A DNA stretch of 49,646 nucleotides from a virus, in IMG/VR virus record IMGVR_UViG_3300022591_000519, positions 1-49,646 of that record. The stretch is one strand, 5' to 3'. A program made the translations under genes and the position numbers. Shown here one piece after another: positions 1-28,544 of the stretch; position 1 is the stretch's first letter; the number at the start of each line of letters is the position of its first letter. The notes under the pieces are model-generated. The model searched no databases, was not told the origin of the DNA, and saw nothing but the letters and a program-made list of their open reading frames with translations.

Positions 1-1056
1 CAAATACTGAGATACAGGATACAAAACACCGAGAGCGATAACGCCACTAGCAAGTCCAACATAAGTCCACCTTGTTAAAAATAGTAAAGCAATGCCCGCT
101 ACTACCAAGGCAATAATCTCTGCGCCATCGGCCCAATCCGGACGCTGAATAGTCACACCGTTCATCATTGTGCCAATGACTGCGGCTTGTACATCTTGTG
201 GCCATACAGAGCCCTTTGATGTAGGTACTGGATTAGCAATACCTGCGGCTGTTGGTCCAACTATTACCACGGCCCCTTCTAAATCTTTTGGTAGATTAGT
301 TAGACTAAAACTACGATTCTGTTGACTCCAGTCAATCCATATACGTCCTAAGTTGTCCGTAGTGATAGGACCAAACTTTGGAATGCGCATTTTCTCAACA
401 CCACCTTCAAATAGTTTTACTTGGAAAGTAGTATCGCCTGCGGCCGCACGTAAAGCCTCCATTGCTAGGCTAGGATATAACTTACCATCAACTGATACAA
501 TTAAAGGAAGTCTACGGTTAACACCATCTACCTCAGGTAGTGTGTTTACAGTACCAACACCGTAGGCATTATTTTCTAATTGCGGTACGTTTGCTATTAA
601 GCCAGGATATTGAACAATTTGATCTAAGAACTCTGGACCTAGTACAGCACTACCTGGAACACGTGGAGTATTCTTAGTTTTCTGTGCAGGAACGTTTGGT
701 AGTATTACTGGATATTGTTTTAGAGCTTGGCCCAGGATACCATCGCCACCCGTACGGTCTGTTTCTGGCATGAGTACGTTAAGTACAACAAGCCCTGCGT
801 TCCTCTGGTATAGATCTCGTATAATTTTGGCATATTCTGCTCGGGGTAAAGGCCATTGACCATATTTGTCTAATGTGGCTTCATCGATATTTACAGTTAC
901 AATATTATTGAACGTGGGTTCTTTGGCTGTAATTAATGTGTCAAAATAACGTAGTCTTACGCTTTCAACGAATGTGGGATCTGCAACACGTATGCCCACT
1001 ACTAACGCAAGGGTTAGTAGAGCAGTCCAAGGGCTTAAAAGGATCTTTTTTAGCAT
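1..1056 (-). CDS. CHASE2-domain membrane sensor protein (C-terminus outside window)
   Basis: Reading from ATG 1056 stays open to the left edge (352 codons), so the end is missing. A hydrophobic anchor (about residues 8-24) is followed by an extracytoplasmic domain with CHASE2-like features: RYFDTL, NIDEATLDKYGQWPLPR, and a later VVIVGPTAAG. Two membrane helices begin near the visible end (about 312-350). CHASE2 is a sensor domain usually fused to an adenylate cyclase, GGDEF or kinase output; any output domain here is outside the window. It is last in the curli-like locus, 18 bp after the curlin-repeat gene. An ACTAAATA late box ends 4 nt before the ATG and there is no Shine-Dalgarno site. The CHASE2 call is fairly firm; the signal sensed is unknown. 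Confidence 0.8.
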   Translation of the reverse strand, partial: MLKKILLSPWTALLTLALVVGIRVADPTFVESVRLRYFDTLITAKEPTFNNIVTVNIDEATLDKYGQWPLPRAEYAKIIRDLYQRNAGLVVLNVLMPETDRTGGDGILGQALKQYPVILPNVPAQKTKNTPRVPGSAVLGPEFLDQIVQYPGLIANVPQLENNAYGVGTVNTLPEVDGVNRRLPLIVSVDGKLYPSLAMEALRAAAGDTTFQVKLFEGGVEKMRIPKFGPITTDNLGRIWIDWSQQNRSFSLTNLPKDLEGAVVIVGPTAAGIANPVPTSKGSVWPQDVQAAVIGTMMNGVTIQRPDWADGAEIIALVVAGIALLFLTRWTYVGLASGVIALGVLYPVSQYL

Positions 1057-1060
1057 CCAG

Positions 1061-1068
1061 TATTTAGT
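1061..1068 (-). promoter_or_regulatory. Late promoter box (ACTAAATA)
   Basis: A T4-type TAAATA core 4 nt upstream of the CHASE2 start codon. With the usual T4 start position the transcript would begin at or just before the ATG, so it would be leaderless. Confidence 0.4.
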
Positions 1069-1074
1069 TGAGTT

Positions 1075-2568
1075 TTAATAGCCTTGTCTTATCATAATAG
1101 GAGCACACCCGCCTGCTGTTGCACAAGTTGTAGTAACTCCTACGCTTTGACCGCCATTTTGTTGTATATTAACTGACGCAGGCCCGCCAGCATTGGTTAG
1201 GTTTAAGGTAGCATTGTTCGCAGTAATACCTTCTTGTAATACAGTAGCAGTATTACGGTCACCAGTTAGTGTAGCATCTAATCTATGTTGTCCAGATCCT
1301 CGTTGTGTAGCATCTACTGTGTTAAGGGCTCCGTCAACTTTAACAAACATGATTTTGTTACCATTATCAGTTTGCTTTTCAGTAACACTATTACCGTTAC
1401 CATATATTGTGGTTTCGTTATAGTGTCCACCGGCTACGCCTGCATTAGTTTGCTGTACTGTTAGGTAAGTACCCCACCCTGCTATGTCTACTGCTAGATA
1501 GTGCCCGTTGGTGCCTAGTGGATTACCTTGCGTGTCCCTTGCTTGATTTAAATTGACGGCATTATTGTTGCCTTCAAAGTTTAACTTCATTTCGTTTTGT
1601 CCAATACCCTGCACACCCTGACGTGCTGTAATTGCATTGTTGGTTCCTTGTAGCTGTAGTCTGATGAGGTTTTTATTACCCATTTGATCCATTGTAACTG
1701 TGTTGTTATCACCACCAATTTGATTGATGTAAATTTGGTTACCATCTGGAGCCGTTCTATTGACCCAGGTGTTTACATTACTCTGCTGAGTTGTAGTAAT
1801 AGTGTTGGCGGCTCCTACTGAGATATCGTTGCTAACACTTCCGCCGCCTACGGTCATATATGAAGGCCACGGTTGTGTTGAACTAGAAGTATTAGTTGTA
1901 ATAACATGCGAGCCATCAGACATCAGGGTATCAGTCCGTGTGGTCGTAGTAGTGACTATACCTGCTTGAGTGTTTTGCGAGCTAGATCCGGTTACAGTTG
2001 TTGTTGAACTTACTGCGATTGGCGCGGCAGGAGCGGCCGGCTGTACAGTTTGCCCAGCGGCCAGCGGAGTAGTGCTACCACCAGTTGCATAGTTGTCTAC
2101 TTGTGCTACAGATGGATTTAATGTGCCAGTCCATGTTACTCCTGCTGAATTTGTAAATCCTGAAGTCATACTAAACAACTGTCCAGTATTGTTATCATTG
2201 CCTACAAAGAAGAAATAGTCAGGACCCATATTAATAATATGGCCAGTGCCCATTACTGCTTTTTGTGTTCCGTTGGCCGTATACTGGATAGCATTATAGG
2301 GATTGGCGGTGTTGCCAGTCTTAACAAACGCAATATAATCACCTGCGGCCCATTGTATTTGTCCGCTGGTCCAGGGAATCTTATAAGCAGTACCTGGGTT
2401 CTTGCTATAGATTTGACAGGTGGCAGTATACATACAAGCTGACACATTCCACTGACTATCGGCAATTTGATAACGACCAAATTTTAAATCAGTTATGCCA
2501 GATGCTTGGCTGTACGCACTAACACATATGGTCAACATAAAAAAGAACTGTAGTAAACGTTTTATCAT
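1075..2568 (-). CDS. Curlin-repeat secreted protein (large, CsgA/B-like)
   Basis: 497 aa with a signal peptide (hydrophobic core about 4-16, SAYSQA cleavage region). Residues 20-170 form a domain I do not recognise, followed by a Thr/Ser/Ala/Pro-rich linker (about 170-245). The C-terminal half has curlin-type repeats with Q..G..N spacing, for example QIGGDNNTVTMDQMGNKN and LQGTNNAITARQGVQG. Such repeats stack into the cross-beta fibre of curli; E. coli CsgA and CsgB are only about 150 aa. The start overlaps the FecR-gene stop (ATGA). It is probably exported through the CsgG pore encoded upstream and may be a nucleator, minor subunit or surface adhesin. The repeat call is good; the exact role is inferred. 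Confidence 0.8.
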   Translation of the reverse strand: MIKRLLQFFFMLTICVSAYSQASGITDLKFGRYQIADSQWNVSACMYTATCQIYSKNPGTAYKIPWTSGQIQWAAGDYIAFVKTGNTANPYNAIQYTANGTQKAVMGTGHIINMGPDYFFFVGNDNNTGQLFSMTSGFTNSAGVTWTGTLNPSVAQVDNYATGGSTTPLAAGQTVQPAAPAAPIAVSSTTTVTGSSSQNTQAGIVTTTTTRTDTLMSDGSHVITTNTSSSTQPWPSYMTVGGGSVSNDISVGAANTITTTQQSNVNTWVNRTAPDGNQIYINQIGGDNNTVTMDQMGNKNLIRLQLQGTNNAITARQGVQGIGQNEMKLNFEGNNNAVNLNQARDTQGNPLGTNGHYLAVDIAGWGTYLTVQQTNAGVAGGHYNETTIYGNGNSVTEKQTDNGNKIMFVKVDGALNTVDATQRGSGQHRLDATLTGDRNTATVLQEGITANNATLNLTNAGGPASVNIQQNGGQSVGVTTTCATAGGCAPIMIRQGY

Positions 2569-3665
2569 TTTTGTGTTAGACTAATAATAGTGTTGCCACC
2601 TTGGTTAATACGGTTCTTAAACTCAATGTTATTTTGAGTTTGATAGATAGTACTATTTTGTGTTTGTGGTGTAGTTACACATTGTCGGTCAGCACCGTTG
2701 TCACGACATAGGGTAACAGTTGGATCTTCTTTGACTACTGTGATACCGCTGGCCTTTTTATAATCAGGTAACATGCTATCTACTTCTGCAAGCAATTTTT
2801 CATTTAACAAATTGCCAACCATATCAAACATATTTCCTAAGAAGTTGTTATCTAAAAAGTTTTGACTCAAACGATCTTGATAAAACTGTCTGTTGGCATC
2901 ATCTAATGCGTTAGTTAATCCTTCAGCTTTTAAGAAGTCAACATCTAAAGGGCCTTTCATTTCGCGGCGCTGTTCTTTTCCGTCTTTCTTAATTTCTTCT
3001 GGAGTTGATATTAATATGTTTTCAATTGCTTGTTCACTAAGGTTTAATGTAACTGGCTTAGTTGGCGCAGAGTTTCTGCTGTTTACTTTAGTTGCTTGGA
3101 ATGGTTGATTAAGAATTACAAATCCAGCATCAGTTTCAACACTAATCTCACCTGTTTTACAATTTGATTCAATGTCTTTTACGTTACGAGTCTTACGATC
3201 GTTAGGACAACTTGGTAGAAGAATAATAGTTGACTGACCTAACTCGTCAACTGACGCTGTAAAGTCAGTACCGCGAACTGATATAGTTGCAGTAGGTGTA
3301 TTGAGTGCTACGTTCTGAGGGGAGTTTTTAGCAATCTGTCCGCTGGCATAGCGTACAGTACCTAAGGCCATCTTAGCACTTAGTTTTCCTGATTTGCTTT
3401 TTGGATCGTAAACAAATTCGTCAATGACTAATTTTGAATTTTCGTTTACCTGTACCTTTGTATCGTCTTGGAAAGTAATACCGACCTTGCCTGCTTGAGT
3501 TTTAATAGAGTCATTCATTTCAACTCCAGTACCCTTAGATCCAGTCAGCGTTGTTTTATCCCGCTGAATACTTGCAGGAGTATTAACTTGTTCTGTTACT
3601 GTTCCTACTACAGCCCAACTTGGAGAAGTGCATAGTAGAAGCAGTATTGCTATCCACGGTTTCAT
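2565..3665 (-). CDS. Secreted FecR-domain protein
   Basis: 366 aa with a Sec signal peptide (WIAILLLLCTSPSWA). Residues about 25-150 match a FecR-type domain: VGTVTEQVNTPASI, a GTGVEMNDSIKTQAGKVGITFQD segment split by a turn, and TPTATISVRGTDFTASV. FecR domains occur in periplasmic signalling proteins and in surface-assembly loci. A Cys pair (PSCPNDRKT, SNCKTGE) and a second pair near the end (LCRDNGADRQC) may form disulfides. The C-terminus is Asn/Gln-rich (TQNSTIYQTQNNIEFKNR) and resembles a single degenerate curlin-like strand. No transmembrane anchor is seen after the signal peptide, so it is likely periplasmic or surface-exposed. It is translationally coupled to genes on both sides. Confidence 0.75.
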   Translation of the reverse strand: MKPWIAILLLLCTSPSWAVVGTVTEQVNTPASIQRDKTTLTGSKGTGVEMNDSIKTQAGKVGITFQDDTKVQVNENSKLVIDEFVYDPKSKSGKLSAKMALGTVRYASGQIAKNSPQNVALNTPTATISVRGTDFTASVDELGQSTIILLPSCPNDRKTRNVKDIESNCKTGEISVETDAGFVILNQPFQATKVNSRNSAPTKPVTLNLSEQAIENILISTPEEIKKDGKEQRREMKGPLDVDFLKAEGLTNALDDANRQFYQDRLSQNFLDNNFLGNMFDMVGNLLNEKLLAEVDSMLPDYKKASGITVVKEDPTVTLCRDNGADRQCVTTPQTQNSTIYQTQNNIEFKNRINQGGNTIISLTQK

Positions 3666-3838
3666 TCATGCCCTTTTTTAAACCAATAATATTTTTGTAG
3701 CTCGCGCATTACGAGATCGCCAGTCGTATTACATTGACGAGCCGCAAACTCTACAAAGTTGTACCAATCACGGGCGTAGTCTTCTTGACCTTGCATCCAT
3801 GCTTGGTACATGTGTTGTAGAGAGCGTGGGTCTATCAT
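3662..3838 (-). CDS. Small conserved-looking phage protein (58 aa)
   Basis: An ORF from ATG 3838 to TGA 3662, starting MIDPRSLQHMYQAWMQGQ and ending YYWFKKGHE; rich in Trp, Tyr and Gln. It fills the gap between the curlin-repeat and FecR genes exactly: it starts 1 nt after the upstream stop and its stop overlaps the next ATG. That fit supports a real gene. There is no signal peptide, so it is probably cytoplasmic, unlike its neighbours. Function unknown. Confidence 0.65.
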   Translation of the reverse strand: MIDPRSLQHMYQAWMQGQEDYARDWYNFVEFAARQCNTTGDLVMRELQKYYWFKKGHE

Positions 3839-3839
3839 A

Positions 3840-4688
3840 TTAACGATGTGCGTTTTGTGTTATATTGTATGTGTTGGTGCTAGATGCGTTTCCTGCTGAA
3901 CCAACTTTTAAATTAAACACGTTAGCATCCGTTGAGCCAGATTGTGCTAAAGTTACTGAGTTGCCTGTACCGTTGATATCCATCCATGCTTGGTGTCCAG
4001 TTGAACCACCAGCACCAGACTGTGCAATATCAATAGTGTTAGTTGCACCTAGTACATTAATATACACAGTACCTTTATCGCCAGTTAGGTTAGTAGTAAC
4101 AGAGTTACCAGTACCACCTGCTGTTGTAATATCTTGTCTAGTCCCAGTAGCATTAACTGTGGAAATTAAAGTTGCACCACCACCACTTTGTGTAGCTGTT
4201 AACTGGTTGTCACTTCCTATCATGCTAACGTTGGATGTGTTTCCACCGTTCAACTGTGTGACGTTTACAATAGTATCAATAGCTTTTGCACTACTTGTTC
4301 CTAATTGGAATGTTGCAATGTTATTGCTACCGCTGATGTTACCTTGGTTAACAGTACTGTATGTAAAGTCAACGCTCTTGTTTGTGCCCATAGAAGCATC
4401 AATACCCAAGTTCATCTTGTTGTTAGAGCCTACTTGGTTAATGTTAACATTAACACCATTACCTCTAATAATAGCAGGAGACGTAGGGTCATTGCTCTGA
4501 GCCGCAGATAAACCTCGAACTTGGTTACCAGCACCGTCCTGATTTATTGTGACATTTGCAAAATCACCTGACTGATCAATATAAATGCTGTTGTCAGCCG
4601 CATAGCCCAATGTTGTCATCGCAGACAACACAAGTATTGCAGTTAATTTTCTCGACAAACTGCCAGCGCCTTTCATTCTTGTAATCAT
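3840..4688 (-). CDS. Curlin-repeat secreted protein (CsgA/B-like subunit)
   Basis: 282 aa. The N-terminus has a basic start and a signal peptide ending in TLGYAADN. Nearly all of the mature protein is curlin-type repeats, clearest at SIYIDQSGDFANVTINQDG and again at VNVNINQVGSNNKMN, VTQLNGGNTSNVSMIGSDNQ, MDINGTGNSVTLAQSGS and the final NTYNITQN. The regular Q..G..N strand-turn pattern fits an amyloid fibre subunit. Start is MITR at 4688 or an internal Met at 4676; neither has a clear ribosome site. A 6-bp hairpin (4700-4720) lies just upstream. It follows csgG by 89 bp and is the best candidate for the main exported fibre subunit. Confidence 0.82.
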   Translation of the reverse strand: MITRMKGAGSLSRKLTAILVLSAMTTLGYAADNSIYIDQSGDFANVTINQDGAGNQVRGLSAAQSNDPTSPAIIRGNGVNVNINQVGSNNKMNLGIDASMGTNKSVDFTYSTVNQGNISGSNNIATFQLGTSSAKAIDTIVNVTQLNGGNTSNVSMIGSDNQLTATQSGGGATLISTVNATGTRQDITTAGGTGNSVTTNLTGDKGTVYINVLGATNTIDIAQSGAGGSTGHQAWMDINGTGNSVTLAQSGSTDANVFNLKVGSAGNASSTNTYNITQNAHR

Positions 4689-4777
4689 TTTATTTTATTG
4701 TTGAGTTTACTATTCTCAACACTCCTCGGCCATAAGCCTTTATAGTTTTTGTAGTTTCACCTTTGTTTCAATTACGA

Positions 4778-5965
4778 TTATTGTTTGTTAACAAGTACAT
4801 CCTTCTTAACAAAACCTCTACGCTTTTCAGCGTCTCTCACTTCAATCCAATCGTCGAGACTGCCTACGATTGTTACAAGTGTGCCCTTTTTAAACTGCCA
4901 AGTTTTTTGACTCTGTTCATTTGGCTCTTTATAGATAAAGGTCGCCTCTGACAAAGTTATTTCGCTTGGTAGCTTTATAAGGGGTGCTACCTCTTTCCTT
5001 ACTTCTGCGGCGGCAGGGGGTAAGGTTTCTGTTTTCGTTTCGGATTGGGTTTGTGGTTGTACCACGACATCTTTCTTCTCCTCTACTTTAACTTCTGAAC
5101 TAATTATAGGAGCAGTTGGTGCTACAAGAGGTACAGGTCCTTTTGGTATAATAACTTCCGCTACTGGATCCTGTCTGTAATCCCATACTCCTTTACGTTG
5201 CCCTTCTTTAATTAATTCTACTACAGCCATTTCTGTTGCGGCTTTAACTGCGTAAGTACCTGGCTCATTAATTGTTAAGCCTACCTCCGCTTCAAAACTC
5301 TGTGTGCCTTGATCAAAGAACTTTAATGCTGTTGCTGAATCTGCTGTGCTTAAGATAGTCTTTTGTACTGTAACACTTGCTATTACCTTTCCTGTGTTTA
5401 CGCTAACTGCTCTCAATGCGATAGTTACTGTGTCTGTAGACCATTGTGTTTGTTTGCCAATACCAAAAATACGCATACCAGCACCGCCACTGGTAGTACT
5501 TGTGTCATAGCCAACAATACCACCTTCAATAATAATGCCCGCAAACATCATAGGCATTAAAGGTTTAGCATTTGCGCCTTCGTATGCTTCACGCATCTGA
5601 CGAATGATTAAGCGTTCTTTAGTCAAGTTGTCAATACCTACACGTTCAACAACTTCAAACCATTGTCCTTGTCCTACATCACTTAGAGCTTTGATTAGGA
5701 ATGTTTCTGCGCCCTGTGTAACTGCTGTTGATAAACTAGCCACGTTAGCTTGTGGACGGCGCTGACCTGTTTTGTCGGCAAAACTATATACTGCTACGCT
5801 AACTGGTTTGCCAGCCGCAGGAGCAGGAAGCGTGTCAAATTCTTTCTTGACATTCTTCATCTGCGTAGTTACTGATGGATCAGTTTCGCTAAGTCCGGTA
5901 CTTTGAATGATTGCGCATCCATTTAGTAGGGCTGTTACTGATAGAGCTATTAATACTTTTTTCAT
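4778..5965 (-). CDS. csgG: CsgG-family outer-membrane curli secretion channel with C-terminal SH3-like domain
   Basis: 395 aa lipoprotein (lipobox LNGC, Cys17). Residues about 50-270 align along CsgG: VSVAVYSFADKTGQ, LSTAVTQGAETFLIKAL, FEVVERVGIDNLTKERLIIRQ, a GYDTSTTSGGAGMRIFGIG loop, KTILS and NEPGTYAVKAATEMAV. CsgG forms the nonameric outer-membrane pore for curli subunits. At the E. coli eyelet (Tyr51, Asn55, Phe56) this protein appears to have Gln72, Ser77 and Leu78. Unlike E. coli CsgG it continues through a Pro/Glu/Val linker (about 275-335) into an SH3-like domain (TFIYKEPNEQSQ to RGFVKKDVLV) that could bind cell wall. It starts 4 bp after the csgF stop. Family assignment is strong. 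Confidence 0.93.
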   Translation of the reverse strand: MKKVLIALSVTALLNGCAIIQSTGLSETDPSVTTQMKNVKKEFDTLPAPAAGKPVSVAVYSFADKTGQRRPQANVASLSTAVTQGAETFLIKALSDVGQGQWFEVVERVGIDNLTKERLIIRQMREAYEGANAKPLMPMMFAGIIIEGGIVGYDTSTTSGGAGMRIFGIGKQTQWSTDTVTIALRAVSVNTGKVIASVTVQKTILSTADSATALKFFDQGTQSFEAEVGLTINEPGTYAVKAATEMAVVELIKEGQRKGVWDYRQDPVAEVIIPKGPVPLVAPTAPIISSEVKVEEKKDVVVQPQTQSETKTETLPPAAAEVRKEVAPLIKLPSEITLSEATFIYKEPNEQSQKTWQFKKGTLVTIVGSLDDWIEVRDAEKRRGFVKKDVLVNKQ

Positions 5966-5969
5966 TTAA

Positions 5970-6434
5970 TTAATTTCCAAATTGGAATTGCCCTAACGGA
6001 ACAACTACGGTAGTTTGATTGCCAACAGTATCTGTAACCTGCAGAGTAACATCTGTGCTACTCTTAGTCCAAAAGATAGTGTTGCCTTCAAAGTTTAATG
6101 TGCCTGAGCATCCAACGCTGTTAGTTCCTGAACAGTTATTATTGGCAAACATTGCCGATGCTAAGTTTTGGCTAATCTGTGCGTAGATACGTGATTCCAA
6201 GTTGTTCATAAACTTGGCAATATTTGTATTTGCTTTGTCAGCGGCCGCTTTATCTAATGCGGCCTGGATAGCATCGCGTACAGCTTTTTGGCGTGTAAAT
6301 TCTTGGTTCTCGATAGTTAGTACGTGAGAACTGTAACCAATGCCGTTAAAGGCAGGGCTTTTAAATGTGTAATCTCCCAATGGGGCCGCAGAGGCACCTG
6401 TAGATAACAATAATACTAGCAATAGCTTGCGCAC
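5970..6434 (-). CDS. csgF: CsgF-family curli assembly factor
   Basis: 154 aa from a GTG start with a strong GGAGGAG ribosome site. Signal peptide LLLVLLLSTGASA, then the CsgF N-terminal pattern YTFKSPAFNG (the segment that plugs into the CsgG pore in E. coli), a helix with NNLESRIYAQISQNL, and the C-terminal strands GTLNFEGNTIFWTK, VTLQVTDTVGNQTTVVVP. CsgF couples CsgG secretion to fibre nucleation at the surface. A short Cys-containing insert (NNCSGTNSVGCSG) could form a disulfide. First gene of the curli-like operon. Its ribosome site lies in an inverted repeat that spans a late promoter. No csgE or csgC is visible in the window. Confidence 0.88.
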   Translation of the reverse strand: MRKLLLVLLLSTGASAAPLGDYTFKSPAFNGIGYSSHVLTIENQEFTRQKAVRDAIQAALDKAAADKANTNIAKFMNNLESRIYAQISQNLASAMFANNNCSGTNSVGCSGTLNFEGNTIFWTKSSTDVTLQVTDTVGNQTTVVVPLGQFQFGN

Positions 6435-6515: not shown

Positions 6516-7910
6516 TTAAACTTGCGGTGTTGGAGGTTGAGTAAACCCTTGAGGTTTTCTAAATGCCGGCGGATTTGAAGGTAATTTTTTAGCCGGTGCA
6601 GGCTGTTGGACTACTTCTGGTTTTGGAGCTCTTAGATTTAAATCTGGGAACTTTTGTTTTACTAACGCAGGAATCTTTTTATGGTTAGTATTTTGAGATG
6701 CTAGTTGCTCAATGTACTTTGCAACGTCGGCTTGCAATGCAGGCTCACGCAGGTCTAAGTTTCTAGGCCAGCGTTGTTGAGCCATCTTGATCATGTACTC
6801 AGCTGTTTGACCGTAGAACGCTTTCATAGCCGCAGGAGTTTGCTTTTTAGGAGGCTCAATACCTGCAATAGGCTCTCTTCGTAAGTTCACGCTTGGGGAA
6901 ATTAGTTTGCCACCCCAACCTGCATTAGGATGAGATAACGAGAATGTTACGGTATCGACATCATTGTACATTTCTGCAGGATCGTCGAAGTAGCGTAATT
7001 CTTGGTTATCAAAGTTGATAAGCATAATGCCATCAAATTTAGTTGATTTATCTTTCTTTTGCTTGTACGCACTATAAGCCGCAGTCAGGTAACCTTGTCT
7101 AACTGGAGCAATTGAATCATGTTTAACATTAATAGATTTTATAGCCTGCTTCAACGGAGTTGTATTCGCCCAAGGTTGGCCTTTAAAGATGTAATCTGCT
7201 AGTTCGTCAGCCATTGCAGATAAACCTTTATTGTCTATAGTACCTTGTTGTTGTGCGGCTACCACTGCTTTTACTAGTTTGTCTGCACCAACAGCTTGCG
7301 AAGTGTCTAAATTTGGCAAGAACTTCTGTAGAATAATATGTACCTTTTGGTGTTGGAACATACTAGTATCGCCAATTGTACCCGATCCTGCTTTAACTTC
7401 AACGATCTGATTTCCAATCTTTAGGTCACCTGATCCAAACACAGATACCTGCGGACTCATAATAGCTAGGGCAAACTCCCCAGGACCTTTTTTAGCCTTG
7501 CCGCCCAAGTCTTTCATTTCGTTAAACATTTCGAATAAAAACTTGAGAGGAACTTTTTTGCTAGGCTTTAATAAATCTGCAAAGTGATGACGGTTGCCGT
7601 CGATCATTTTTTGAATATCTACATAACCGGTTTTTAAACCGTTTACAAAGTTCATCTTTTCTTCAAAGGTACCCGGCGCACCGATAATCGCGTTTGCAAT
7701 TTCATCCTGGAAGGACCTAATTTCAGGATCTGATAAATTATGTAATTCACCGTGTAGTCGCTGATTTAGATCCCCACTATTAAGTGTAGTATAGATTCGG
7801 TTTAATAAGACTTCGTCATCTGTTTGATCGATGCCTGCTTTTACCTTAGTCTTTAGGTTGTCTAAACTTCTTGCAGAAGTTTTTTCAAAGATGATATCAA
7901 TTGCTCGCAT
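6516..7910 (-). CDS. Putative internal virion protein with nuclease-like motif
   Basis: 464 aa. The N-terminus MRAIDIIFEK matches a short tag shared with other virion-like proteins here (M-R/K-x-x-x-L/I-x-E). Around residue 170 the stretch GDLKIGNQIVEVKAG has the D-x(n)-E-x-K spacing of PD-(D/E)XK nucleases, inside a segment that looks beta-rich; this is suggestive only. The last 50 residues are Pro/Lys-rich and probably disordered. A late box (GCTAAATA) ends 7 nt before the ATG and there is no Shine-Dalgarno site. Probably a phage structural or injected protein; I do not recognise a named family. Confidence 0.6.
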   Translation of the reverse strand: MRAIDIIFEKTSARSLDNLKTKVKAGIDQTDDEVLLNRIYTTLNSGDLNQRLHGELHNLSDPEIRSFQDEIANAIIGAPGTFEEKMNFVNGLKTGYVDIQKMIDGNRHHFADLLKPSKKVPLKFLFEMFNEMKDLGGKAKKGPGEFALAIMSPQVSVFGSGDLKIGNQIVEVKAGSGTIGDTSMFQHQKVHIILQKFLPNLDTSQAVGADKLVKAVVAAQQQGTIDNKGLSAMADELADYIFKGQPWANTTPLKQAIKSINVKHDSIAPVRQGYLTAAYSAYKQKKDKSTKFDGIMLINFDNQELRYFDDPAEMYNDVDTVTFSLSHPNAGWGGKLISPSVNLRREPIAGIEPPKKQTPAAMKAFYGQTAEYMIKMAQQRWPRNLDLREPALQADVAKYIEQLASQNTNHKKIPALVKQKFPDLNLRAPKPEVVQQPAPAKKLPSNPPAFRKPQGFTQPPTPQV

Positions 7911-7917
7911 AGTCTAA

Positions 7918-7925
7918 TATTTAGC
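7918..7925 (-). promoter_or_regulatory. Late promoter box (GCTAAATA), leaderless type
   Basis: TAAATA core overlapping the end of the bilin reductase gene, 7 nt upstream of ATG 7910. No ribosome site is present between box and start. Confidence 0.4.
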
Positions 7926-8586
7926 CTAGTTCTGGGAACAAACTGTAGTTGACGTATGCGGCCGCTTCCTCCGCTGTAAAGCCTAAATGCTGTAAACTAG
8001 CGGGAGTGCGTGGATTTTGCTTTTGATAACGGCAATAGCGATCTTGTACCATTTCATAGGTGGCTACATCTTGTTGCCCTAATCCTACATTAGCTAGATA
8101 AAAATCCAGTGTTTCTAGCCCTAGCTTAATAAACTTGTCTAATTCTTCTTCACCCACCGCACCGATAGCTACCATAGCAGGGCTAAAGATCTGCTTGCCC
8201 CAATCGGGCAGTTCTCTAGGCTTGTTCCACTCTTCCATTGCTACCTTGGCGTTAAACCAAAGCCACATAGGACTTTCTTTATCGCCTGCTAGACTAAAGT
8301 CGTGGAATGCACCGCTTACTTTTGTTGGCCCGCAAACAATATCAAAACCGTAAATAGGGCTAGGGTCGTTAGTGTGGGGAAACACAGTAACGTGTAGTAG
8401 ATAAAGTTTTTTAGTTTCTCTCGCATCTATAATACTAATATGTGCTCTACGATATTTCATAGAGGTATATTCTTTATCAGCTAACAGCTCTGTTCTGAAT
8501 ACACTATTCAGAGCACCTGTCTGAGTAAAACGCCTAGTTATTTCTTCGGCGCAGGCAATAGTTTTATCAAACAAGCTCTGAGTCAT
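7921..8586 (-). CDS. Ferredoxin-dependent bilin reductase (PcyA/PcyX-like)
   Basis: 221 aa. Matches the FDBR family: YGFDIVCGPTKVSGAFHDFS, with Asp96 at the position of the PcyA catalytic Asp105; PMWLWFNAKVAMEEW; and the terminal pattern YCRYQKQNPRTPASL...YVNYSLFPEL. FDBRs reduce biliverdin to open-chain bilins using reduced ferredoxin. The late acidic residue of PebS (in its FGxDW segment) is not evident, so it looks nearer the PcyA/PcyX group than PebS. Phage PcyX enzymes are known to make phycoerythrobilin; the product here cannot be set from sequence. The gene overlaps the heme oxygenase gene by 20 bp, so the two are co-translated. Confidence 0.88.
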   Translation of the reverse strand: MTQSLFDKTIACAEEITRRFTQTGALNSVFRTELLADKEYTSMKYRRAHISIIDARETKKLYLLHVTVFPHTNDPSPIYGFDIVCGPTKVSGAFHDFSLAGDKESPMWLWFNAKVAMEEWNKPRELPDWGKQIFSPAMVAIGAVGEEELDKFIKLGLETLDFYLANVGLGQQDVATYEMVQDRYCRYQKQNPRTPASLQHLGFTAEEAAAYVNYSLFPELG

Positions 8587-9103
8587 AGGTGTGCATTAGT
8601 TTCATTGCCCACTCAAAGGCTACGTTAGCTTCATCACCCATACTATCATTTAATTTAGCACGGATTGCGATTTTAAGAGCATCAACATCTGCAAACTCTA
8701 AATTACGGTGTGGGGGAGGTAAAACTTTTTTAATCATTTGTCCGCCAAACAAATCGCCCATGTGCCATACATACAAGTGTGCTAGAATACGCTCAGGTTG
8801 ATCAACTAGAGTTAGCAAGTATCGAGAATACTCTCCAGTAACAGGGCGCACACGCACCTTGCTCATATCGCCTAGAATTTCTTGCGCATCAAGATATAAG
8901 TGTACGCTACGCTCAATATCTAAAATGTCTAGTGTTAGTTTATTGTAACGGCAAACGTTTTCAATAGTATTATATATTACACTCTTTTGAAATGTGTAAT
9001 CACCCCAAACAGGCACAGGCATGCGTTTTTTAAATACGGCCTGCATAAAGGGTGTTGCCTCTGCGGCTTGGTGACTGTCCCAAGTTAATTCTTTCAAGCT
9101 CAT
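8567..9103 (-). CDS. ho: Heme oxygenase
   Basis: 178 aa HO-1 type enzyme that opens heme to biliverdin, CO and iron. The proximal heme ligand is His11 in TWDSHQAAEATPFM, and the distal-helix signature HLYVWHMGDLFGGQMIKK is intact. It is somewhat shorter than bacterial HO (about 200-240 aa), as in other phage versions. It supplies biliverdin to the bilin reductase whose start lies inside its 3' end. A canonical late box TATAAATA lies 18 nt upstream, with GGAG as ribosome site. Confidence 0.92.
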   Translation of the reverse strand: MSLKELTWDSHQAAEATPFMQAVFKKRMPVPVWGDYTFQKSVIYNTIENVCRYNKLTLDILDIERSVHLYLDAQEILGDMSKVRVRPVTGEYSRYLLTLVDQPERILAHLYVWHMGDLFGGQMIKKVLPPPHRNLEFADVDALKIAIRAKLNDSMGDEANVAFEWAMKLMHTYDSELV

Positions 9104-9137: not shown

Positions 9138-9440
9138 TTATTCGGCTTCAACTTTTAGGACTAATGGGAAGTTGTTTTCACGAGCTAGATTAGTACCTTC
9201 AATGGCTTTCTGTTCGCTAACCTCAAATGTATAAACTCCGGCAATCGCAGATCCTTCGTGATGGATTTTCATCATCAACTGTTCAGCGGCAGATTGGCTG
9301 TGGTGGAACACTCTCATCAGAAGCACGATAACAAACTCCATAGGGGTTTTGTCATCATTAAGAATGAGGACTTTGTACTTACCTGGGTTAAGAATATCTA
9401 AATCTTCCACGGTTTCTTGTTTAGTAATAACTTCTGACAT
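9138..9440 (-). CDS. clpS: ClpS N-degron adaptor
   Basis: 100 aa, close to E. coli ClpS (106 aa). The core VLILNDDKTPMEFV (Asn28, Asp29) and KIHHEGSAIAGVYTFEV keep the residues that bind N-end-rule residues. ClpS brings such substrates to ClpAP and blocks ClpAP from SsrA-tagged proteins. The same phage encodes a tmRNA, so ClpS could steer tagged peptides away from ClpAP (inference). It has its own late box, TATAAATA at 9460-9467, and an AGGAA-type ribosome site. Follows hsp20. Confidence 0.93.
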   Translation of the reverse strand: MSEVITKQETVEDLDILNPGKYKVLILNDDKTPMEFVIVLLMRVFHHSQSAAEQLMMKIHHEGSAIAGVYTFEVSEQKAIEGTNLARENNFPLVLKVEAE

Positions 9441-9459
9441 TTTGTTTTCCTACTGTCTG

Positions 9460-9467
9460 TATTTATA
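9460..9467 (-). promoter_or_regulatory. Late promoter box (TATAAATA) of clpS
   Basis: Exact late consensus 19 nt upstream of the clpS ATG. Confidence 0.65.
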
Positions 9468-9499
9468 AAATGGTGGGCAGGGGTACGCCCACCGGTGTA

Positions 9500-9934
9500 T
9501 CAACGATGTGTTATTTCAATACGTTTTGGTTTTGCAGATTCTGGTACTTGGCGCTGTAACTTAATAGTTAAAACACCTTTATCAGTAGCCGCACTCATTA
9601 CTTCAATGTATTCAGCTAACGGAAATACACGTTGGAAGTCTCGAGTAGCAAGACCTCGATGTAGATAAACTGTTGAGTCTGATTGTACATCGATATGCTC
9701 TCCTTTAACGACCAAGTGACCGTTAACTACTTCTACAGTAACTTCGTCCGTATCGAAACCTGCGACAGCAATTTGAATTTCATAATTGTCATCGTCGTAT
9801 TTGATTACGTTATGTGGAGGGTAGTTTGTTGAATTTTGAATACGATTTTCAAACTCGTTGAAAATGCTATCAAATCCTATAAGTGCTCTGTTTAGTTGAT
9901 TTAGAGCGGTTGTGTCAAATTTTACAACTTGCAT
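9500..9934 (-). CDS. Small heat-shock protein (Hsp20/alpha-crystallin family)
   Basis: 144 aa ATP-independent holdase. The alpha-crystallin domain spans about residues 40-135 (YEIQIAVAGFDTDEVTVEV, LVVKGEH, FQRVFPLAEYIEV, GVLTIKLQRQVPE) and the start resembles IbpA/B (FDSIFNEFENR). Hsp20 proteins occur in several T4-like cyanophages, where a role in virion assembly has been suggested. The 5' leader has a ROSE-like hairpin over the AAGGAG site. Follows dnaK on the same strand. Confidence 0.93.
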   Translation of the reverse strand: MQVVKFDTTALNQLNRALIGFDSIFNEFENRIQNSTNYPPHNVIKYDDDNYEIQIAVAGFDTDEVTVEVVNGHLVVKGEHIDVQSDSTVYLHRGLATRDFQRVFPLAEYIEVMSAATDKGVLTIKLQRQVPESAKPKRIEITHR

Positions 9935-10026
9935 GTTTTTCTCCTTTTAATAAGCAAGAATAATATTTCGGGCCCTATGCCCTATATAAGGGACCCCTAA
10001 GGCATCCCCTATATTCTTTTGCAGAA
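9935..10026 (-). promoter_or_regulatory. ROSE-like RNA thermometer in hsp20 leader
   Basis: Minus-strand leader. The final hairpin (9960-9939) pairs UUCUUGCU with AAGGAGAA across a UAUUAA loop, leaving one bulged G. UUGCU opposite the Shine-Dalgarno with a bulged G is the hallmark of ROSE thermosensors of small heat-shock genes. Upstream G- and C-rich blocks (AUGCC pairing with GGCAU, plus a GGG/CCC hairpin) could form the extra stems typical of ROSE leaders. Seen by eye, not folded by program. Confidence 0.65.
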
Positions 10027-11928
10027 TTATTTTACTTCTTCAAACTCTGCGTCAACTACGTTCTCAGCTGGCTTCTCACCTTCTGCCGTAGCTTCTGTTG
10101 CTGGTTGCTGTTGTGCGGCCACCTCAGTTTGAATGTCACTTAGGACAGCACTGATGTTACCTACTTGGCTAACCATTTCTTCTTTATCATCACCTTTAGC
10201 GGCTTTTTCTGCGTAGGTTAAGATTTCAGCAATACGATCTACTAGTTTTTTGCTCAACTTGCCTTCGTGTTCTTTTGCTTGCTTCTTAACTTCGCTGATA
10301 CTGTTTTCCAAACCATTACGTGATTGGATTAACTCAAGTTGCTTCTTATCTGCTTCAGCATTAGCTTCTGCTTCTTGAATCATCTTTTCAATTTCAGCTT
10401 CGCTCAATCCGCTATCTGATTTGATAGTGATCTTGTTTTCTTTGCCTGTGTTCTTATCTTTGGCGCTTACGTGTAGAATACCGTTGGCGTCAATGTCAAA
10501 TGTAACTTCAATTTGTGGAACACCGCGTGGTGCTGTTGGAATACCTTCTAAATTGAACTCGCCTAACAATTTGTTGTAAGCAACTAGTTCACGTTCACCT
10601 TGGAACGCTTTAATTGTAACAGCAGGTTGATTGTCTTCAGCAGTTGAGAATACTTGTGTGTGCTTTGTTGGGATAGTTGAGTTCTTCTTAACCATCTTAG
10701 TCATAACACCGCCCATTGTTTCAATACCCAAGCTCAATGGAGTAACGTCTAACAATAGAACGTCAGTACGTCCACCGCTTAGAACTTGACCTTGAATAGC
10801 GGCACCAACTGCTACTGCTTCGTCTGGGTTAACGTCCTTGCGTGGAGCCTTGCCAAAGAATTCTTGAACTGTATCTTGAACTTTAGGCATACGTGTTTGA
10901 CCACCGACAAGGATAACTTCATCAATGTCTTCTGGTTTAAGTTGAGCATCTAGTAAACATTGTTTACATGGTTGCATAGAACGAATGATTAGTTCGCCAA
11001 CTAGTTCTTCAAACTTAGCACGTGTAAGTCTCAAGTTCAAATGCTTAGGACCATCTGCGGTTGCAGTGATGTAAGGCAAGTTAATGTCTGTTTGTTGTGA
11101 GCTGGACAATTCAATCTTGGCTTTTTCAGCGGCTTCTTTCAAACGCTGTAGTGCTAGTACGTCTTTAGTTAAGTCAAAACCTTGTTCTTTCAATGTTTCG
11201 CTTACTGTCCAATCCATAATGGCTTGGTCAAAGTCTTCACCGCCCAAGAATGTGTCGCCGTTAGTGGCTAATACTTCAATTTGTGTATCGCCATCTACGT
11301 TAGCAATTTCAATAATGGAGATATCAAATGTACCACCACCTAAGTCGTATACGGCAACTTTACGGTCTTGCTTGCTAACTTTATCTACACCATATGCTAG
11401 TGCGGCCGCTGTTGGCTCGTTGATAATACGTAGAACTTCTAGGCCTGCAATCTTACCTGCATCCTTGGTAGCTTGACGTTGGCTGTCATTGAAGTAAGCA
11501 GGAACTGTAATAACTGCTTGAGTAACTTCTTCACCTAGATAGTCTTCAGCGGTCTTTTTCATCTTGCGCAAGATTTCTGCTGAAATTTGTGGAGGTGCTA
11601 ATTTTTCATCACGTTGTTGAATCCAAGCATCACCGTTCTCTGCTTCGATGATTTTATAAGGCATCAAGTCGATGTCTTTCTGGACTTCTTTTTCTTTGAA
11701 TTTACGACCGATTAAACGCTTGCTAGCATAGATCGTGTTTTTTGCGTTAGTAACTGATTGACGCTTTGCAGTTGCGCCTACTAAAATTTCACCTGGGTCA
11801 GTGTACGCAACAATACTTGGAGTAGTGCGAGCACCTTCTGAATTTTCAATTACTTTTGGTGTTGTACCTTCGATAATAGCAACACAGCTATTTGTTGTAC
11901 CTAAGTCGATACCGATTACTTTACTCAT
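10027..11928 (-). CDS. dnaK: DnaK (Hsp70) chaperone
   Basis: 633 aa from ATG 11928, chosen because AAGGAG sits just upstream and the protein then begins [15 protein letters not shown]; the frame stays open 15 codons further but inside the leader. The full Hsp70 set is present: phosphate-1 loop [39 protein letters not shown], the [12 protein letters not shown] linker and substrate domain, and an EEVK tail lacking the final residues of E. coli DnaK. ATPase and substrate domains look intact. A bacterial-type DnaK is uncommon in phages. No dnaJ or grpE is seen here, so it would need host cochaperones. It has both a sigma70 and a late promoter and a ROSE-like hairpin. Confidence 0.96.
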
Positions 11929-12010
11929 TTTATTCTCCTTGATTAAGCGAGTATATATTTTGGCTCTTGCCACTGTAAGACCCTTACGGCGTCCTACAAT
12001 AGTATTTATA
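11929..12010 (-). promoter_or_regulatory. dnaK leader with ROSE-like hairpin
   Basis: The hairpin at 11951-11935 pairs CUCGCUU with AAGGAG across an AAUC loop with one bulged G, matching the UYGCU rule of ROSE elements. Two perfect small hairpins lie upstream in the leader (GTAAG-GGT-CTTAC and GGC-AAGA-GCC). Weaker than the hsp20 case because the loop is only 4 nt and the stem 6 bp. Confidence 0.5.
12003..12010 (-). promoter_or_regulatory. Late promoter box (TATAAATA) of dnaK
   Basis: Exact late consensus 74 nt upstream of the dnaK ATG, just downstream of the sigma70 -10 element. Confidence 0.6.
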
Positions 12011-16824: not shown

Positions 16825-17039
16825 CTTATAGCAAATATAGTAGCATCCCTAGGATTGCTAAACCTAAAAGCAAATCCTTCCGTTGCCTTGTAACCATGCA
16901 AGTGATATGGCTCCCCAGGAGCAGAGTCTACCCACTCTAGGATATCTCTAATTGGATAGTTTGGCTCATCTAGTATCTCAGTCCACTTGATGATAACTTC
17001 AGTCCAATCTGGGGGAGGCCATGCTTCTACTTTTTGCAC
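16815..17039 (-). CDS. Small early protein, family A paralogue
   Basis: 74 aa ending FAFRFSNPRDATIFAIRWL (family A motif). Trp/Pro-rich start (EAWPPPDWTEVIIKWTEIL). Overlaps the next gene by 10 bp. Function unknown. Confidence 0.6.
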   Translation of the reverse strand: MQKVEAWPPPDWTEVIIKWTEILDEPNYPIRDILEWVDSAPGEPYHLHGYKATEGFAFRFSNPRDATIFAIRWL

Positions 17040-17040
17040 G

Positions 17041-17259
17041 TCACTTAGTCCATCTCAAGACAAACAATAATGCATCTTTTTCATTACGGAAATAAAATGT
17101 ATTATCACTGCCAGTCCACCCAAAACGCCAGCGTTGTTTACGACCTCCTGGACCAAACGACTGTTCACACCAGGTTCTAATTGCTTGGTTATCACTTGCC
17201 CAACTATTAGGCATTGTGATTTTATGCTTGTACTTGCTTTTGCGTTTTGTAGTAATCAT
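17041..17259 (-). CDS. Small early protein, family A paralogue
   Basis: 72 aa; the clearest family A member with the 107-aa protein at 17943 (NTFYFRNEKDALLFVLRW against AKFWFRNEKDLTMFLLRW). The middle has WCEQSFGPGGRKQRWRFG, also echoed by the others (W.-.-.FG....RW). Basic N-terminus. Function unknown. Confidence 0.65.
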   Translation of the reverse strand: MITTKRKSKYKHKITMPNSWASDNQAIRTWCEQSFGPGGRKQRWRFGWTGSDNTFYFRNEKDALLFVLRWTK

Positions 17260-17260
17260 A

Positions 17261-17458
17261 TTAAACCGTAGTCGAACTAAATCTCAAAACAAACATCATG
17301 TGATCGAGTTTATTAGCAAAGTAAATGTTAGGATGTCTAAAGCCCCAACGTCCATCAGTGCCATTGCCGTAGTTCTGTTTAAGCCAATCAAATACTTCTT
17401 GAGGTGGCTCAACATTGTTTAATTCAACAATGTGATATTCGTGATCAAGAACTAGCAT
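17261..17458 (-). CDS. Small early protein, family A paralogue
   Basis: 65 aa: FDWLKQNYGNGTDGRWGFRHP followed by the motif NIYFANKLDHMMFVLRF. Same layout as the neighbours: a helix with W, a Gly-rich turn with RW, then F/Y-x-F-x-N. Overlaps the nucleotidase gene by 14 bp. Confidence 0.6.
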   Translation of the reverse strand: MLVLDHEYHIVELNNVEPPQEVFDWLKQNYGNGTDGRWGFRHPNIYFANKLDHMMFVLRFSSTTV

Positions 17459-22353: not shown

Positions 22354-22427
22354 TGGTGCGCCTGACAGGACTCGAACCTGCCACCTGGAGTTTTAGAAGC
22401 TCTTGCTACCCATACAGCTTCAGGCGC
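22354..22427 (-). tRNA. tRNA with anticodon best read as CUA (candidate amber suppressor)
   Basis: 74 nt including encoded CCA. The 7-bp acceptor stem GCGCCTG/CAGGCGC is perfect, the T arm is GCAGG-TTCGAGT-CCTGT, and the D arm is short (GCT/AGC). The anticodon region GAGCTTCTAAAACTC folds best with GAG/CTC and loop TTCTAAA, giving CUA with U33 and A37; closing pairs 27-43 and 31-39 are mismatched. Reading it as Arg(UCU) would break most of the stem. Position 8 is A and 14 is U, the reverse of the usual pair, so the tRNA is divergent. It has its own sigma70 promoter 2 nt upstream. Confidence 0.7.
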
Positions 22428-28016: not shown

Positions 28017-28103
28017 AATTTGTCCTCATTAACATAATACACCCTCCTTGTGGGTCATACTATAATAACGCCTTTGACAGTAAGAAAGTTTACACGTTTG
28101 GAC

Positions 28104-28128
28104 AAAAAGAAACCCGCCGGAGCGGGTT
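28104..28128 (-). terminator. Terminator of the tmRNA gene
   Basis: Minus strand AACCCGC-TCCG-GCGGGTT then TCTTTTT. The stem start overlaps the CAGAAC that can pair with the acceptor piece. Confidence 0.8.
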
Positions 28129-28420
28129 CTGCTATTTTGGATGACAAGGTATAACTACCTCGCAAGAGCGGTTTCTTAGGCCGCTAGTTCGAACGCGAAG
28201 TCGTTGCTAGCAACTTCTTCTACGCTGAATGTCTTGAATTCAAATGTTTTTGCATTTGTAGTTTTTGCTTCTACGGCCGGGAAACCCCAACCCTACGGCT
28301 TCTGCTTTGCCGAGCTGTCCACTTCAATACTCTTTGCCCTGTCGAAACCAATGCACCCCCACCTAAATATACCTTATACACTTAGGTGGAGGTGGGCGGG
28401 GTCGAACCGCCGTCCAGAAC
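28126..28420 (-). ncRNA. ssrA: Circularly permuted two-piece tmRNA (ssrA)
   Basis: On the minus strand the acceptor piece comes first (28420-28387: T arm GGCGG-TTCGACC-CCGCC, then CACCTCC and discriminator A), followed by a 26-nt spacer and the 5' piece starting GGGGGTGCATTGGTTTCGACAGGG broken as usual (28360 down). GGGGGTG and CACCTCC pair over 7 bp, and ACCTAA/TTAGGT extends the stem across the spacer, forming a processing loop. CCA is not encoded. The tag reads from GCA at 28268 to TAA at 28176: begins AKTTNAKTF, ends ASNDFAFELAA, up to 30 aa, longer than the usual 8-20. The resume codon follows TAGAA, like UAGUC in E. coli. Permuted tmRNAs are known in alphaproteobacteria, some betaproteobacteria and cyanobacteria. 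Confidence 0.92.
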
Positions 28421-28454
28421 ACTTTTTTCTCTGCTTCATACAGCAATAACTTAT

Positions 28455-28483
28455 ACTATACTATCTTTTGACAAGCCCGTCAA
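28455..28483 (-). promoter_or_regulatory. Sigma70 promoter of the tmRNA gene
   Basis: TTGACG, 17-bp spacer, TATAGT on the minus strand, about 28 nt before the acceptor piece. Confidence 0.75.
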
Positions 28484-28544
28484 GATGATCCTTGCCCAAT
28501 CTCAACTAGACACGCTACGCGAGTACGCTTTCCGGGTACTGTAT

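Follow-up and report, generated by a model that had tools for sequence, protein, structure and literature searches.

Gene content of the curli-like block

The window analysed here is a stretch of viral DNA of 49,646 nucleotides (positions 1 to 49,646 of IMG/VR record IMGVR_UViG_3300022591_000519), at one end of which lies a leftward block of genes (positions 1-6434) resembling a curli, or type VIII secretion system (T8SS), locus. As determined with protein family profiles, the order of this block, entirely on the minus strand, is csgF, csgG, a first curlin-repeat gene (curA), a frame of 58 amino acids (aa), fecR, a second curlin-repeat gene (curB) and a CHASE2 gene. A preliminary description of this DNA, made from the sequence alone, had placed csgF, csgG, two curlin-repeat proteins, FecR and CHASE2 in one leftward set; this was borne out by the profiles, with CsgG, CsgF, FecR and CHASE2 all exceeding Pfam cut-offs.

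The csgF gene (5970-6434) encodes a 154-aa protein that matched Pfam CsgF above cut-off (3.3e-12), as well as phrog_35372 (6e-59). It is followed by csgG (4778-5965), encoding a 395-aa outer-membrane pore lipoprotein (Pfam CsgG, 1.7e-46) with a lipobox cysteine at position 17, as well as a linker and an SH3b domain at its C-terminus (residues 343-390, positions 4796-4939; Pfam SH3_4, 4.6e-9, above cut-off). Both proteins therefore matched the models after which they had originally been named. CurA (3840-4688; 282 aa) was identified by its profile match to curlins and a predicted beta-strand repeat fold, and the 58-aa accessory frame (3662-3838), located between curA and fecR, was conserved in 8 of the 53 related phage loci described below. 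The fecR gene (2565-3665; Pfam FecR, 1.2e-9; phrog_37870, 8e-127) encodes a putative secreted protein with a signal peptide-like start, in which the cytoplasmic anti-sigma and transmembrane architecture was not seen. Its frame shares 4 bases with that of curB (1075-2568), whose 497-aa product exhibited a signal peptide-like N-terminus, a conserved N-terminal part and C-terminal curlin repeats. The last gene (1-1056; Pfam CHASE2, 3e-40) encodes the CHASE2 half of a CHASE2-adenylate/guanylate cyclase, the 3' part of the gene being removed by the contig end. This frame corresponds to the first half of the 681-position family phrog_35576, and its complete homologues, of about 680 aa, contain both CHASE2 and Guanylate_cyc domains. 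The truncation of the CHASE2 frame, the SH3b tail of CsgG and the 58-aa frame had all been missed in the preliminary description. An Rfam search of the block revealed no riboswitch.

Curlin subunits

The family profile of CurA matched the solved curlin 8C50 (E = 3e-17) and E. coli CsgA (8ENQ, E = 1.2e-4), and that of CurB matched 8C50 (E = 5e-8) over its C-terminal repeats only. The curlin-repeat assignment was thus upheld at the level of family profiles but not of single sequences, for which Pfam matches were weak or absent (CurB against Curlin_rpt: 0.0034, under cut-off). Counts of the QxGxxN motif compared with shuffled sequences provided modest support for curlin repeats (p between 0.01 and 0.07), the profile matches being stronger. 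The AlphaFold model of CurA consisted of a series of short strands (predicted template modelling score, pTM, of 0.79; mean predicted local distance difference test score, pLDDT, of 76), and that of CurB was poor (pTM 0.44).

Across relatives, CurB appeared to be modular: its ends were conserved, and its middle ranged from nothing to several hundred residues. In five relatives, Pfam detected within this protein an F5_F8_type_C domain, a carbohydrate-binding fold, which was absent from the CurB of the window. Another CurB insert had a PA14-like appearance that Pfam did not confirm, and a curlin repeat in the C-terminal tail of FecR was suggestive only (9 of 42 proteins at an independent E-value, i-E, below 0.1).

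The CsgG pore and its SH3b tail

The CsgG family profile covered nearly the full length of E. coli CsgG (E = 2e-68), with an invariant lipobox cysteine; the residues of the E. coli pore eyelet differed in the alignment with the phage family. Of 38 phage CsgG proteins, 20 matched SH3 families, versus none of 26 taken from among the longest alphaproteobacterial ones. Since the C-terminus of E. coli CsgG is periplasmic and SH3b domains often bind the cell wall, this tail probably anchors the pore to peptidoglycan.

Conservation of the block in a jumbo phage lineage

A scan of IMG/VR with CsgG yielded 53 related loci carrying the same block; the phage contigs that hold them reach 353 kb. Where these loci reached far enough, a near-universal order was observed, in one direction: ClpS, (heme oxygenase, bilin reductase), csgF, csgG, curlin, fecR, (curlin) and CHASE2-cyclase, the genes in brackets being variably present. 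The exceptions were a few loci with added genes before the cyclase and one (L051) with an inverted cyclase. Three of the CsgG-bearing contigs (245-353 kb) contain the T4-type major capsid gene gp23, which is not within the window itself; in the one relative for which it was compared, the closest counterparts, at 65-70% identity, were those of PA5oct/GAP32-type jumbo phages and Sinorhizobium phage Phosso. Moreover, five CsgG-bearing contigs encode a ribonucleotide reductase (RNR) sharing 70-71% identity with that of the window; its distance upstream of csgG is about 15-21 kb in these contigs and 27 kb in the window, which was collinear with related CsgG-bearing contigs. Based on the identity and position of RNR and on the capsid-bearing relatives, the window is most likely a fragment of a jumbo T4-like phage lineage. 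A chromosomal block misjoined to a phage contig was ruled out by the recurrence of the block in 53 contigs, and the earlier statement that it sits in a phage genome was confirmed by these loci.

All six curli genes are under purifying selection: in comparisons with nearest relatives in which dS was measurable, CsgG, CsgF, CurA, FecR, CurB and CHASE2 all had a ratio of nonsynonymous to synonymous substitution rates (dN/dS) of about 0.04-0.20. FecR and CHASE2 are members of the phage module, not incidental neighbours. A quick CsgG tree from an unfinished search, with long branches, tentatively grouped marine and jumbo phages together, the window falling in a phage clade; support at the deep forks was moderate (82-85).

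FecR and the CHASE2 cyclase

Since CHASE2 domains are sensors located outside the cytoplasm, and FecR begins with a signal peptide-like segment and lacks a cytoplasmic anti-sigma part, a periplasmic site of action is probable for both proteins. By inspection, the metal-binding motifs of the cyclase were retained.

A small membrane-protein pair associated with CsgG

The family phrog_18771 comprises two paralogues, each about 95 residues long, with one hydrophobic segment (by inspection) followed by a charged stretch. Among 25 contigs searched whole, at least one, and usually two, of these proteins were found in all 16 that carry CsgG versus none of the 9 without it (Fisher p = 5e-7, uncorrected for relatedness). 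Examples are located at 16963-17277 and 19157-19462 of contig L002, 5960-6598 of L138 and 5844-6406 of L139; in most jumbo contigs, the pair lies beyond the cyclase on the opposite strand. Similarity to the holin profile phrog_4898 was weak (E = 1e-4 to 0.05). A published curli module of marine phages (PMC9599517) starts with a gene labelled "HK", for histidine kinase, which may correspond to phrog_18771 under another name, as these proteins are too short for a histidine kinase and match none in Pfam.

Neighbouring genes and other features of the window

Upstream of csgF, and likewise on the minus strand, we found a fast-evolving 464-aa protein (6516-7910) without a match in Pfam or PHROG. A protein of about 320-640 aa occupied this gap in many loci, and a phmmer homologue of the window copy was detected in few of them. 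Further upstream are a ferredoxin-dependent bilin reductase of the PcyA/PcyX family (7921-8586; Pfam Fe_bilin_red, 9e-18) and a heme oxygenase (8567-9103; Pfam, 6e-13). The presence of these two genes was associated with that of curli (16 of 25 versus 1 of 21 contigs; p = 3e-5, uncorrected for relatedness), but this was an association only, and their role as an obligate curli partner was ruled out. Phage cassettes of the heme oxygenase-bilin reductase kind have been published (PMC11480375).

Next come, on the same strand, a ClpS adaptor (9138-9440), an Hsp20 small heat-shock protein (9500-9934; Pfam HSP20, 5.7e-19) and the Hsp70 protein DnaK (10027-11973; Pfam HSP70, 1e-251). DnaK in curli biogenesis is the subject of PMC6123696; however, a curli-specific chaperone set was ruled out, as most of the 80 related contigs contained the block from ClpS to DnaK (9138-11973), whether or not they had curli genes. 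The whole block, ClpS included, belongs to the core of the lineage.

A tRNA with anticodon CUA (22354-22427, minus strand), called tRNA-Pyl by ARAGORN, is a possible amber suppressor. TAG ended 6 of the 64 complete long frames, none of them in the curli block; since such ends were few and the read-through extensions short, a strong sign of recoding was absent from the fragment. A two-piece (permuted) tmRNA (28085-28497, minus strand) also matched the betaproteobacterial tmRNA model, and this type hints at a betaproteobacterial host.

Proposed function and alternative explanations

Identification of the block as a phage curli-like T8SS locus is supported by its matches to family profiles, by the order of its genes, and by their conservation and purifying selection. 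We consider it reasonably likely that this cassette serves to export curlin fibres from the infected cell, with a role outside that cell. During infection, the phage would produce two curlin-type subunits with signal peptides, which the Sec system of the host would carry into the periplasm. The CsgF-capped CsgG pore, probably held to peptidoglycan by its periplasmic SH3b tail, would let them cross the outer membrane, and fibres would form outside. CurA would make up the body of the fibre, within which CurB would probably serve for adhesion or nucleation: its N-terminal part is conserved, its middle is exchangeable, with carbohydrate-binding domains in some relatives, and its C-terminus carries curlin repeats. 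FecR and the CHASE2 cyclase, facing the periplasm, would probably sense export and signal to the cytoplasm. That the infected cell would export amyloid fibres is a fair inference from these sequences, and the likeliest benefit would be extracellular, through adhesion or clumping of infected cells or a surface cover.

Several observations weigh against this interpretation. Foldseek searches of the CurA and CurB models against the PDB gave no significant match. The usual transition-state asparagine was replaced by serine in 28 of 33 phage cyclases, which makes cyclase activity uncertain, and the cyclase domain of the window itself lies beyond the contig end and is known from relatives only. Likewise, phrog_18771 was not found in the window, which stops inside the cyclase gene, short of the expected place of the pair. 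CsgE, the gate of the CsgG pore, was not found in 29 contigs, and Pfam scans of the window proteins revealed no member of the CsgC and CsgD families, in line with the earlier statement that csgE, csgC and csgD were not seen. CsgE is also absent from alphaproteobacterial curli modules (PMC9599517), and is therefore not a universal T8SS requirement. Moreover, clumping was not seen in OM43 cells infected with the Methylophilales phage Melnitz, which carries related genes (PMC9004378), and in the literature found, fibre, secretion or binding had been demonstrated for no phage curli system.

Three other functions were weighed. Instead of promoting adhesion, the fibres might protect the infected cell, either against further phages (superinfection exclusion) or against grazers. 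Shielding was suggested in PMC9599517 and is consistent with surface fibres and expression in the infected cell, but on its own it would leave the carbohydrate-binding inserts of CurB unexplained, and we regard it as unlikely. The CsgG-CsgF pore might otherwise have been reused, in a pinholin-like manner, for lysis timing or membrane depolarisation, fibre export being incidental, as proposed for Melnitz (PMC9004378). The weakly holin-like phrog_18771 pair, present in every CsgG-bearing contig searched whole, is consistent with such a use. However, the text of PMC9004378 describes Melnitz as lacking csgA and csgB, a premise contrary to its GenBank record, in which two curlin-associated repeat proteins are annotated. 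Moreover, both curlin subunits accompany the pore and are conserved as carefully as it is, contrary to what would be expected if the pore were retained solely for lysis or uptake, and neither the SH3b anchor nor the lectin-type inserts would have an evident role; a lysis pore thus appears improbable.

An ungated CsgG pore bringing nutrients or cofactors into the infected cell was raised in PMC7029224 and PMC9599517. The absence of the CsgE gate and the heme oxygenase and bilin reductase genes adjoining and associated with the block would fit this idea. It would not explain CsgF and two curlin proteins under selection, and the heme genes also occurred without curli (9 contigs) and curli without the heme genes; we therefore consider uptake very improbable.

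Within the favoured interpretation, fibre export, a more specific and rather doubtful version is that jumbo T4-like phages run a rewired and self-contained organelle for fibre export, in which CsgG-SH3b is anchored to peptidoglycan, a phage-only inner-membrane pair replaces CsgE, and exchangeable sugar-binding domains on the fibres choose the adhesion target of the host. Together, the strict phrog_18771 partner, the SH3b fusion and the carbohydrate-binding inserts of CurB offer concrete and testable clues to a fibre role in adhesion and to a possible substitution of CsgE by something that the phages encode themselves.

Comparison with known curli systems

Phage-borne curli genes have been published previously (PMC7029224, 2020; PMC9004378, 2022; PMC9599517, 2022). 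The module in PMC9599517 consists of HK, CsgF, CsgG, CsgA/B, FecR, CsgA/B and adenylate cyclase (AC), with transcripts found in marine metatranscriptomes, and superinfection protection and aggregation were proposed as its roles. Aggregation ("sibling capture") and superinfection protection are discussed across these three papers, so the functional ideas of the preliminary description were already in print. Curli genes have also been reported on a Bacteroidetes-phage contig (PMC7198788) and csgGF in temperate viruses of sediments (PMC9636769). A paper on curli in the present jumbo lineage was not found in a literature search that left subscription journals mostly outside its reach.

The novelty implied for phage curli did not hold, as the cultured phages HTVC008M (Pelagibacter) and Melnitz are annotated with the same six-gene order as the window lineage: csgF, csgG, curlin, fecR, curlin and CHASE2-cyclase. 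They also carry the phrog_18771 pair, and Melnitz, like the window, has a tmRNA, which in Melnitz is located near the curli genes. The CsgG of the window is 43-44% identical to theirs, which is too short to include an SH3b domain. Unlike the jumbo lineage, both are Kyanoviridae of 141-147 kb; the phrog_18771 pair directly precedes csgF, unlike in most jumbo contigs, and DnaK, heme oxygenase and bilin reductase were not annotated in the stretch examined. Pelagipodophages of the HTVC023P type (PMC9599517) have CsgF, CsgG, CsgA/B and FecR, often with a second CsgA/B and a cyclase, in order; in contrast, they are small podophages, with a "histidine kinase" before csgF.

Among cellular systems, alphaproteobacterial curli operons similarly exhibit csgF and csgG followed by curlin-repeat genes; however, FecR and the CHASE2-cyclase were not found in 74 of 75 loci (some on short contigs), and their CsgG lacks SH3b. 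The only chromosomal exception is Hyphomonas TMED17 (locus L063, 7474-13497 of a 705-kb contig), in which csgF, csgG, curlin, fecR and CHASE2-cyclase follow the phage order. This module stands alone among 105 genomes of the family, and Hyphomonas TMED17 may be close to the lineage from which the module came or may have received it. Small contigs in metagenome-assembled genomes (L058-L061 and L066) assigned to Rhodobacteraceae, Flavobacteriaceae, Pirellulales and Pelagibacter, whose modules resembled those of phages, looked like binned phage contigs and were not used as cellular relatives; a "Salmonella phage" match, an unverified 1.5-kb wastewater contig, was ignored. The csgBAC/csgDEFG system of E. 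coli shares the CsgG and CsgF families and curlin repeats with the window, but also has CsgE, CsgC and CsgD, and a different gene order.

Overall, phage curli were previously known from marine phages of streamlined hosts, with a putative role. That a distinct lineage of very large phages has also conserved this module, under selection, suggests that the strategy is more general among phages. Systems of this type are known; the occurrence in a jumbo T4-like lineage, the CsgG-SH3b fusion, the F5/8 inserts of CurB and the phrog_18771 pair are new.

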